Origin: Candidatus Epulonipiscium sp.
Lineage (GTDB): Bacteria; Bacillota; Clostridia; Lachnospirales; Defluviitaleaceae
Length of the DNA: 64,000 nucleotides
Assembly: GCA_012519205.1 (NCBI GenBank)
Contig: JAAYQR010000010.1
Location: forward strand, 124,001-188,000
Direction: 5' to 3'
Shown here: positions 45,008 to 47,833 of the stretch, piece by piece
Layout of the letters: each line of letters starts with the position of its first letter
Numbering within the stretch: position 1 is the first letter of the stretch
Translations under genes and position numbers: made by a program
The notes under the pieces: model-generated
What the model was told of the DNA's origin: nothing
What the model saw: the letters and a program-made list of their open reading frames with translations, nothing else
Databases searched by the model: none

Positions 45008-45040
45008 AAGCCGGATTCATTTTTTGAATCCGGCTTTTTT
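45008..45040 (+). terminator. Terminator after the S4 paralogue
   Basis: A 12-bp stem AAGCCGGATTCA/TGAATCCGGCTT (45008-45019, 45025-45036) is followed by a run of T. Confidence 0.88.
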
Positions 45041-46166
45041 ATGATAATCTTGTTTTAAATTCTTCGTATCCAAACCGACGGATAATTCGGCAGTTTCCCT
45101 CCTTGTCTTTGATTGCTATGGAAGGGAGGGGCATACCATTGAAGGTGTTGTTTTTGACCATGGAGTATATTGCCATATCTCCAAAAATCAATTTATCCCC
45201 TGGTTCTAGGGGCTTATCAAAGGAGTAATCCCCTATGGTATCCCCGGCAAGACAGGTGTTGCCACCGAGCCTATACATATATGGTTTTTCCCCTATATTA
45301 CCTGAATGAAGTAGAGGAGGGCGATAGGGCATTTCTAGGACATCGGGCATATGGCAGGCGGCAGAAGTATCTAGTATGGCAATGTCCATTTCATTTTGTA
45401 CAATGTCAAGTACGGTTGTAATGAGATACCCTGCATTAAGGGCGATTGCCTCCCCGGGTTCTAGATAAACTTCTAAATTGTATCTATTTTGCATTCTCTT
45501 GATACAATTTTCTAATATCTCCATATCGTAGTCTTCCCTTGTAATATGATGCCCACCGCCCATGTTGATCCATTCCATCTGTGGCAGCCATTGTCCAAAT
45601 CTCTTTTCGACTTCCTCGAGAGTCTTTTCTAAGTCATTGGAATTCTGCTGACAAAGAGTATGAAAATGAAAACCGGAAATCCCTTCAAGTAAGTCTGGAC
45701 GAAAATGATCTATAGTAACCCCAAATCTTGAGCCGGGGGAGCAAGGATCATATATGGCATGTTCCCCCTGGGTTGAGTGCTGGGGGTTAATACGAAGTCC
45801 GGCTTTTTTACCGGCTCTTAGGACTTTATCCTTGAATTTTTGGATCTGTAAAAAGGAGTTAAAGACAATGTAGTCACAAATTCCTATGATTTCATCGATT
45901 TCATCTTCTATATAGGCCGGAGAAAATATATGATTTTCTTTCCCCATTTCCTCATATCCTAAACGGGCCTCATATAATCCGCTGGCAGTGGTTCCATCTA
46001 GATATTCTCCGATCAGCGGATACATTTTGAACATGGAAAAGGCCTTTTGGGCTAATATTATTTTACATCCTGTTCTATCTATGACCCCTTTTAAGACTTC
46101 TAAGTTCTTTTTTATAAGCCCTTCATCTACTACATAGCAGGGGGTAGGCAGCTGAGTTATCTTCAT
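45039..46166 (-). CDS. nspC: Carboxynorspermidine decarboxylase
   Basis: The 375-residue PLP enzyme is of the alanine-racemase-fold decarboxylase group. Lys41 in ILAQKAFSMF should bind PLP. The motifs SGFHFHTLCQQN, MGGGHHITR and the catalytic Cys in LGGNTCLAGDTIGDY fit NspC. It removes the carboxyl group from carboxynorspermidine or carboxyspermidine. It is one base downstream of the synthase gene and shares its leader. Confidence 0.9.
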   Translation of the reverse strand: MKITQLPTPCYVVDEGLIKKNLEVLKGVIDRTGCKIILAQKAFSMFKMYPLIGEYLDGTTASGLYEARLGYEEMGKENHIFSPAYIEDEIDEIIGICDYIVFNSFLQIQKFKDKVLRAGKKAGLRINPQHSTQGEHAIYDPCSPGSRFGVTIDHFRPDLLEGISGFHFHTLCQQNSNDLEKTLEEVEKRFGQWLPQMEWINMGGGHHITREDYDMEILENCIKRMQNRYNLEVYLEPGEAIALNAGYLITTVLDIVQNEMDIAILDTSAACHMPDVLEMPYRPPLLHSGNIGEKPYMYRLGGNTCLAGDTIGDYSFDKPLEPGDKLIFGDMAIYSMVKNNTFNGMPLPSIAIKDKEGNCRIIRRFGYEEFKTRLS

Positions 46167-46167
46167 C

Positions 46168-47367
46168 TTAATCCACCAGCTTTGGGTTAAAGCTTTCTTT
46201 CCATGGTAGCCCCCATTTATTTAAGGCTTCCATAAAAGGATCTGGATCAAATTCCTCTATATTGTATACGCCCTTATCATCCCATATTCCTTTCATTAAC
46301 ATCATAGCTCCTATCATAGCCGGTACCCCCGTGGTATAAGAAACCGCTTGGGAGCCCACTTCCTTATAACATTCTTCATGATCACAGACATTATATATAT
46401 AGTAAGTCCTATCTTTTCCGTCTTTTTTCCCCCTAAAAATACAGCCAATATTAGTTTTACCCTTTGTCCTTGGGCCTAAGGTGGAAGGATCAGGCAGTAC
46501 TGCCTTTAAAAATTGAAGGGGTATAATTTGTTTACCCTCGTATTCGATTGGCTCGATGGAGGTCATTCCTACATTTTCAAGGCATTTTAAATGGGTAAGA
46601 TAACTTTGTCCAAAGGTCATAAAGAAACGAATACGCTTAATCCCTGGAATATTAATAGCTAGGGATTCAATTTCTTCATGATGTATCAAGTACATATCTT
46701 TTTCTCCGATTTCTGGAAAATCATAAACCTTCTTAATCTCCATTGGCTCGGTTTCTATCCATTTTCCATTTTCCCAATAGCTTCCCTTAGCACTTACTTC
46801 ACGGATATTTATTTCAGGGTTAAAATTAGTTGCAAAAGGATATCCATGGTCCCCTGCATTGCAATCTAAAATATCTATATATTCGATTTCATCAAAATAA
46901 TGCTTAAATGCATAAGCTGCAAATACCCCTGTTACCCCAGGATCAAAACCGCTACCTAAAAGGGCTGTAATACCAGCTTCTTCAAATCGCTTTCTATACT
47001 CCCATTGCCATTTATACTCGAATTTTGCAGTATCTTCTGGTTCATAATTTGCAGTATCTAGATAATCTGTTTTTGTAGCAAGACAAGCTTCCATAATGCT
47101 TAAATTTTGATAGGGTAGAGCCAGATTCATCACAATATCTGGTTTTGTATCTTCAATCAAAGCAATCATTTCCTCCACATTATTAGCATCCACTTGGGCT
47201 GTTGTAACTTTTGTTTTTCCCCCATCTAATTTTGATTTTAGAGCATCACATTTTGACTTTGTACGGCTAGCAATACAAATTTCCTCAAACACCTCACTGT
47301 TTTGACAGCATTTATGGACTGCTACAGAGGCAACCCCACCACAACCAATAATAAGCGCTTTCCCCAT
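46168..47367 (-). CDS. Carboxynorspermidine synthase (saccharopine dehydrogenase family)
   Basis: The 399-residue NADPH-dependent enzyme starts with the nucleotide-binding loop ALIIGCGGVASVAVHKC. The family segments ALLGSGFDPGVTGVFAAYA and YTTGVPAMIGAMML are present. It condenses aspartate semialdehyde with a diamine and reduces the product, the first step of the alternative spermidine route. AAGGAG precedes the ATG. The gene lies 33 bases after a terminator, so expression depends on read-through. Confidence 0.88.
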   Translation of the reverse strand: MGKALIIGCGGVASVAVHKCCQNSEVFEEICIASRTKSKCDALKSKLDGGKTKVTTAQVDANNVEEMIALIEDTKPDIVMNLALPYQNLSIMEACLATKTDYLDTANYEPEDTAKFEYKWQWEYRKRFEEAGITALLGSGFDPGVTGVFAAYAFKHYFDEIEYIDILDCNAGDHGYPFATNFNPEINIREVSAKGSYWENGKWIETEPMEIKKVYDFPEIGEKDMYLIHHEEIESLAINIPGIKRIRFFMTFGQSYLTHLKCLENVGMTSIEPIEYEGKQIIPLQFLKAVLPDPSTLGPRTKGKTNIGCIFRGKKDGKDRTYYIYNVCDHEECYKEVGSQAVSYTTGVPAMIGAMMLMKGIWDDKGVYNIEEFDPDPFMEALNKWGLPWKESFNPKLVD

Positions 47368-47399
47368 TTGATCATCTCCTTATTAAATATTGTAATAAC

Positions 47400-47439
47400 A
47401 AAAAAGCAAGTGTCATGCATATTATGCACAATACTTGCT
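47400..47439 (-). terminator. Terminator (attenuator) before the polyamine genes
   Basis: On the minus strand AGCAAGT/ACTTGCT (47439-47433 and 47411-47405) with an inner TGCAT/ATGCA helix leads into six T (47405-47400). It ends 33 bases before the synthase ATG, with no room for another promoter. Confidence 0.85.
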
Positions 47440-47798
47440 CGGATATTGTATGAATATGAAAAAAGCAGAAATATCCCATAGTAAAACCATAGGGTATCCC
47501 TATCAAAACTAACCATGATAGAAAGCCTTCTCATAATACAATTACAATCTTTAGAGTCTATATAGCAAATAATTACTTTTACCACTCTTATTGACCGTTT
47601 CACAAGTTGATGTGCTTTTATGCACCGGTTGTAAAGTAACCAACTTATAAAATTTGAGCTTTTAACTCAATCAATAAGGCAAACTAAGTTGCCAATCGGC
47701 ACCTGACCCGGCTGTCCGTATGGCCTTAACATCCTAGGATGTGGTCAAAATTATCTGCTTGGAAAGACTCAAGATTTAAAAGCTTTCCAATCAATTAC
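47400..47798 (-). ncRNA. Structured leader RNA of the carboxynorspermidine operon
   Basis: From a strong promoter a leader of about 400 bases is made before the synthase gene. The first 200 bases are rich in pairing: GGAAAG/CTTTCC hairpin (47785-47760), a palindrome CCTAGG, GACC/GGTC helix, GGCAA/TTGCC hairpin (near 47693-47678), TTGAG/CTCAA hairpin, and a three-way junction closed by AAGTTG/CAACTT at about 47646-47604 with GGTT/AACC and GTGC/GCAC arms. The last part has a GGATATT/AATATCC hairpin and the terminator. I do not recognise the class with certainty; length and shape of the first part are near those of the raiA motif RNA. It is either an attenuating riboswitch or an independent RNA. 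Confidence 0.55.
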
Positions 47799-47804
47799 TT
47801 TAAT

Positions 47805-47833
47805 ATAATATCAGGATATAAAAATTTTTTCAA
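47805..47833 (-). promoter_or_regulatory. Sigma-A promoter of the leader RNA
   Basis: On the minus strand TTGAAA (47833-47828), a 17-base spacer and TATTAT (47810-47805). Transcription would start near 47798. Confidence 0.7.

Follow-up and report, generated by a model that had tools for sequence, protein, structure and literature searches.

A conserved pseudoknotted leader RNA of polyamine biosynthesis genes in Bacillota as a probable spermidine riboswitch

Polyamines, which bind heavily to RNA, belong to the most abundant cations of the cell. In the literature we found one rare class of validated bacterial polyamine riboswitches, whose authors expect that more exist (PMC10853860). This variant of the SAM-I riboswitch senses spermidine and is located before ldcC, speE and speB (PMC10853860, Cell Rep 2023). 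The odc1 and potE motifs are also structured RNAs tied to polyamine genes, but the first is a uORF-containing element upstream of ornithine decarboxylase genes and the second a weak candidate, and both are set apart from the RNA described here by their described genes and architecture (PMC8632094). From Streptococcus pneumoniae TIGR4 a transcript of 318 nt, equipped with promoter and terminator, is known between SP0915 and SP0916 (SN20, srn235 or F59), which a tiling-array study from 2010 took, because of a MEME motif, for a possible FMN switch (PMC2887815). Its Rfam family RF02440 is typed as sRNA and models 54 nt only, with no ligand, pseudoknot or expression platform given. The Rfam name 'ldcC RNA' suggests that the gene link had already been noticed by someone. 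The open-licence papers found call F59/SN20/srn235 an sRNA or make the FMN guess, and none of them describes it as a polyamine switch.

The leader RNA and its fold

We analysed a stretch of 64,000 nucleotides from Candidatus Epulonipiscium sp. (the window), in which a leader precedes two polyamine genes on the minus strand. The upstream gene (46168..47367, ATG at 47367) encodes CASDH, a carboxy(nor)spermidine synthase or carboxyspermidine dehydrogenase, which reached 430.7 bits with NCBIfam NF043000 and thus stays below the equivalog cut-off of 800. It is followed by nspC (45039..46166) for the carboxynorspermidine decarboxylase CANSDC (TIGR01047, 490.4 bits, above the cut-off of 409). The initial annotation had described a promoter with a 17-base spacer, a leader of about 400 nt and a strong terminator shortly before the start codon, and all three were recovered: a sigma-A-type promoter, recognised by consensus match only, with TTGAAA (47833-47828) and TATTAT (47810-47805; 47805..47833, minus strand) and a transcription start at about 47798; about 400 nt from there to the terminator; and an intrinsic terminator (47397..47440, minus strand; hairpin 47440-47404, T-run to 47397) of -16.9 kcal/mol about 30 bases from the ATG.

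Between promoter and terminator lies a conserved RNA of about 205 nt (47553..47758, minus strand), the putative aptamer, which was delimited from P1 to GACUCU by two alignments (A1 and A3) and the full-length covariance model R1. With R1 the window scores 241 bits (E 1.4e-63), being itself one of the 45 training sequences. RF02440 matches over its full length (model 1-54 of 54; 67.8 bits, gathering score 37.2) at 47696..47747 on the minus strand, which covers P2, P3, P4 and the CGGACAG...GCCGA stretch. This 54-nt core corresponds to the 5' third of the RNA, and the unit is far larger than the Rfam model. A further hairpin P0 (UUGGAAAG...CUUUCCAA; 47759..47790, minus strand) stands directly 5' of the putative aptamer, and P0-like hairpins were spotted by eye in other leaders.

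The fold is enclosed by the long-range helix P1 (47758-47749 with 47574-47565, minus strand), which shows covariation. Inside it follow P2 with hairpin P3 and helix P4, then hairpin P5, and in the 3' part P6 closes a junction of P7 and P8, with P9 and P10 completing a three-way junction (47598..47652, minus strand; alignments and fold). This agrees with the three-way junction proposed earlier at 47646-47604. P1 is crossed by P11 (47554..47587, minus strand), in which RNAalifold pairs GAGU (47587-47584) with ACUC (47557-47554) to a pseudoknot. The folded 5' region seen initially is a real structure but only part of the unit, which extends over 47758-47553 and includes P1 and P11.

Covariation among homologous leaders, suggested as a check at the outset, was found in both alignments. 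In A1 (45 sequences) 95.9% of the cells are paired and 19 pairs show double changes; none of 500 shuffles reached any of five measures, and shifting the partner by one to three columns lowered pairing to 33-46%. A3, whose alignment was fitted to the covariance model and whose 74 sequences include Streptococcus-like ones, is paired in 95.5% of cells, with double changes in 34 of 57 pairs and 301 double-change cells where shuffles gave 77; again not one of 500 shuffles reached any of the five measures. Without guidance RNAalifold recovered the greater part of the nested fold, namely P2-P9 and part of P10, and also P11. Since P6, P11 and the larger part of P8 are nearly invariant, covariation speaks neither for nor against them, and P11 lacks such support because it is invariant in A1.

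The possibility that the leader is a raiA motif or another standalone RNA did not hold up in the Rfam search. For raiA, T-box and c-di-GMP there was no match in the window, no SAM family matched the leader at gathering score or E<=1, so that the SAM-I fold was not encountered, and RF02440 was the sole meaningful match to the leader at E<=1. RF02440, although typed as sRNA, has the same gene association, so that this match does not speak against the initial reading; the copy in the window sits as a leader, with a terminator, before polyamine genes.

Gene association, distribution and natural variants

A DNA-pattern search over 84,980 species gave at least 120 loci, with L019, L069 and L119 being chance matches, and further loci were fetched with RF02440 and with our own covariance models. 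The pattern fixes GGACAGC...GCCGAT by construction, a bias from which the loci found by Rfam or our models are free; loci from Rfam and from the pattern share about 205 nt at very high identity. The full RNA is present in well over 100 genomes of Bacillota, ranging over Bacilli and many Clostridia, and named carriers include Paenibacillus, Neobacillus, Bacillus, Cohnella, Blautia, Gemmiger and Acetobacterium. R1 matched 25 of 398 evenly drawn Bacillota genomes (about 6%) and 38 of 379 genomes in the class of genome G066. A minimal model of the 3' core (R2) detected these 25 of the 398 genomes again, plus three chance-level matches, which argues against a hidden large branch in that sample, and no viral contig matched the 3' core pattern exactly.

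Among the matches listed, 113 loci could be evaluated; they had been selected solely by RNA sequence, and in every one of them the RNA is followed on the same strand, 107-473 nt downstream, by a gene of polyamine biosynthesis as its next gene. The first gene encodes CASDH in 68, SpeD in 28 and an arginine/lysine decarboxylase (ADC/LDC) in 17 of these 113 listed loci, and 54 of the 68 CASDH-first loci show only CASDH followed by CANSDC. The operon types vary accordingly: CASDH and CANSDC alone, SpeD with ADC/LDC, or ADC/LDC with SpeE, CASDH and CANSDC. The SpeD/SpeE and the CASDH/CANSDC routes both converge on spermidine, and the CASDH route does not use SAM. Since three different first enzymes converge on spermidine, the shared signal would be the product and not SAM or aspartate semialdehyde.

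All 25 R1 matches from the 398 Bacillota genomes precede polyamine biosynthesis genes, as do 26 of 27 Bacilli loci in one check and nine of ten loci in another, the exception in both cases being the genome of L226. The orphan leader L226 is a decayed exception to the gene link: its terminator is followed by a transposase-like ORF, and no polyamine gene was found over about 5.6 kb. At L223 the ADC/LDC match consists of two overlapping fragments downstream of a shortened leader, and this operon is possibly decaying.

Several natural variants were observed. L160 and L162 (genomes G220 and G195) are minimal forms before SpeD without the 5' domain P2-P10, which keep P1, CUUGUGAA, AAUAAGAGUAGUAAAAGU and GACUC as a natural core of about 100 nt; the regions downstream of them hold GCAAGU. 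A shortened type before ADC/LDC (L163, L224 and L225; G244, G511 and G576) differs in its 5' half and carries a lengthened P7-like hairpin. In a Streptococcus-like subtype (L217, L219, L220, L222 and L226), a label for family f127 and genus g219 that we infer from gene order and sequence, the pairs of P2, P4, P5 and P7 are changed and AAAGUACGUA replaces GAGURGUAAAAGU in the 3' core, an alteration that could reflect an altered ligand or platform. The Streptococcus-like versions precede ADC, SpeE, CASDH and CANSDC in this order.

In the window's own order CASDH occurs in 10 of 39 relatives, but the RNA in none, so that it is no fixed companion of the gene. In these relatives (L228-L234) CASDH often lies in a longer operon, 3' of SpeE or SpeB-like genes. 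The two-gene operon of the window (45039-47367) with its RNA leader resembles the arrangement in Bacillus and Paenibacillus, suggesting that operon and leader may have been acquired by horizontal transfer.

Terminator, antiterminator and the proposed switch

An intrinsic terminator was present between RNA and gene in all 113 leaders among the matches listed. Its 5' arm, AGCAAGUAUUGUGC in the window (47439-47426, minus strand), complements GCAC-AUCA-ACUUGUG, which holds the P10 and P8 3' strands, and coevolves with this switching strand, which makes it the proposed antiterminator partner. In the window the switching strand is GCACAUCAACUUGUG (47601..47615, minus strand) and consists of the P10 3' strand, the joining nucleotides and the P8 3' strand. 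Across 43 nonredundant leaders the duplex of arm and strand averages -15.3 kcal/mol with the own partner versus -12.1 kcal/mol with swapped ones, and none of 20000 permutations was as good. Scanning along the RNA gave a signal only at the P10-3'/P8-3' strand (z -6.8 to -8.8), with |z| at most 2.2 in the rest. CUUGUG alone as the partner proved too narrow, with z -2.6 versus about -9 when the P10 3' strand is included. The duplex of the window itself is a typical one but no better than with swapped partners (-13.3 versus -13.2 kcal/mol) because its clade shares the sequence, the signal coming from the comparison between clades. In L045 CGCAAGUCUGC pairs with GCAGACUUGUG, and the unusual P10 of L008 (AUAUAC) is matched by an altered terminator arm. 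In the Streptococcus-like leaders no equivalent antiterminator was seen. Between aptamer and terminator GAAUAAAUAA motifs recur around short hairpins (L010, L017, L022, L116, L124 and L126).

As the terminator arm pairs with the P10/P8 strand, aptamer and terminator on one side and antiterminator on the other would be mutually exclusive. In the model that we propose, the nascent leader would fold into the pseudoknotted aptamer (P1-P11), and bound ligand would stabilise this fold and hold GCACAUCAACUUGUG in P10 and P8. The terminator 5' arm would then be free, the terminator would form and RNA polymerase would stop short of the polyamine genes. With little ligand present, GCACAUCAACUUGUG would instead pair with the terminator 5' arm as antiterminator and the operon would be transcribed. 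In pneumococcus, deletion of potABCD (loss of polyamine uptake) lowers putrescine and spermidine and raises SP_0916 16.9-fold and SP_0918 14.4-fold, while many other genes change too (PMC8540371). The rise of this operon is consistent with an OFF switch, a sign of response that is also indicated by the function of the genes.

Conserved fold, gene link, universal terminator and coevolving antiterminator helix are supported by computation. The riboswitch or attenuator layout of the initial annotation has thus been borne out, with polyamine genes behind the RNA apart from one decayed exception, a terminator throughout the tested set and a coevolving arm. Computationally, the RNA shows a structured leader domain, a link to genes of one pathway and an expression platform that excludes the aptamer. 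A genuine widespread attenuator of polyamine genes is very likely on these comparative grounds, and it likely acts as a direct polyamine riboswitch; sensing of polyamines by the RNA itself is strongly suggested. As the genes are biosynthetic and the pathways converge on spermidine, the leader is most naturally read as an OFF switch that responds to the end product. We judge that it is, with good probability, a cis-acting, transcription-terminating OFF riboswitch for a polyamine end product, with spermidine as our favourite ligand.

The same attenuator might respond to another compound of the pathway, namely putrescine, agmatine, cadaverine, a carboxylated intermediate or norspermidine, and with the operons varying, the decarboxylase-first ones would fit a diamine too. 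This appears unlikely: CASDH comes first in 68 of the 113 loci among the matches listed, 54 of them with CASDH and CANSDC only, and since these two enzymes consume a diamine to make the triamine, one would expect induction by a diamine and not repression. SAM-derived signals do not fit the SAM-free CASDH route either. Control of the attenuator by an RNA-binding protein or other trans factor, without direct ligand binding, is less probable still; a protein site could account for the large size and the very high sequence conservation, but the span over Bacilli and many Clostridia and the complex pseudoknotted fold are rather as in metabolite riboswitches.

That short transcripts were detected in pneumococcus and that RF02440 (SpF59_sRNA) carries an sRNA label would also agree with a trans-acting small RNA placed before polyamine genes by incident. 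We regard this as very improbable, because the gene order is fixed in 113 of 113 loci among the matches listed, there is coevolution between the 5' arm of the terminator and a strand of the aptamer, and a terminated leader accounts for the short transcripts. Leader-peptide attenuation by the ribosome likewise uses terminator/antiterminator pairs, but it is hardly credible for a core with conserved stops in all three frames (UAUUGAUUGAGUUAAAAGCUCAAAUUUUAUAA), with helix and loop lengths that vary freely, and with a longest open stretch of 38 codons (median), in which no shared peptide was seen.

Comparison with known RNAs

The raiA motif is, like the present RNA, a large and highly conserved RNA of Bacillota, but its gene association is to our knowledge a different one. 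RF02440 shares the genomic place, lying before SP0916 in Streptococcus. The SAM-I-variant spermidine riboswitch is likewise a transcription-terminating OFF switch before polyamine genes, but it has the four-stem SAM-I fold and is rare, with 13 representatives (PMC10853860), whereas the RNA described here has a different, larger and pseudoknotted fold and a much wider distribution. If our reading is correct, it would be a second, common polyamine riboswitch class with a distinct fold, would explain the tuning of polyamine synthesis in many Gram-positive bacteria including pneumococcus, and would lead to a reclassification of the orphan sRNA RF02440. The RNA probably represents a new and widespread class, which has a large pseudoknotted aptamer of its own, bears no relation to the SAM-I variant and has been concealed in Rfam behind a 54-nt piece labelled 'sRNA'. 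The class would include minimal natural versions that lack the 5' domain and, as a diverged subtype, the Streptococcus-like RNAs.
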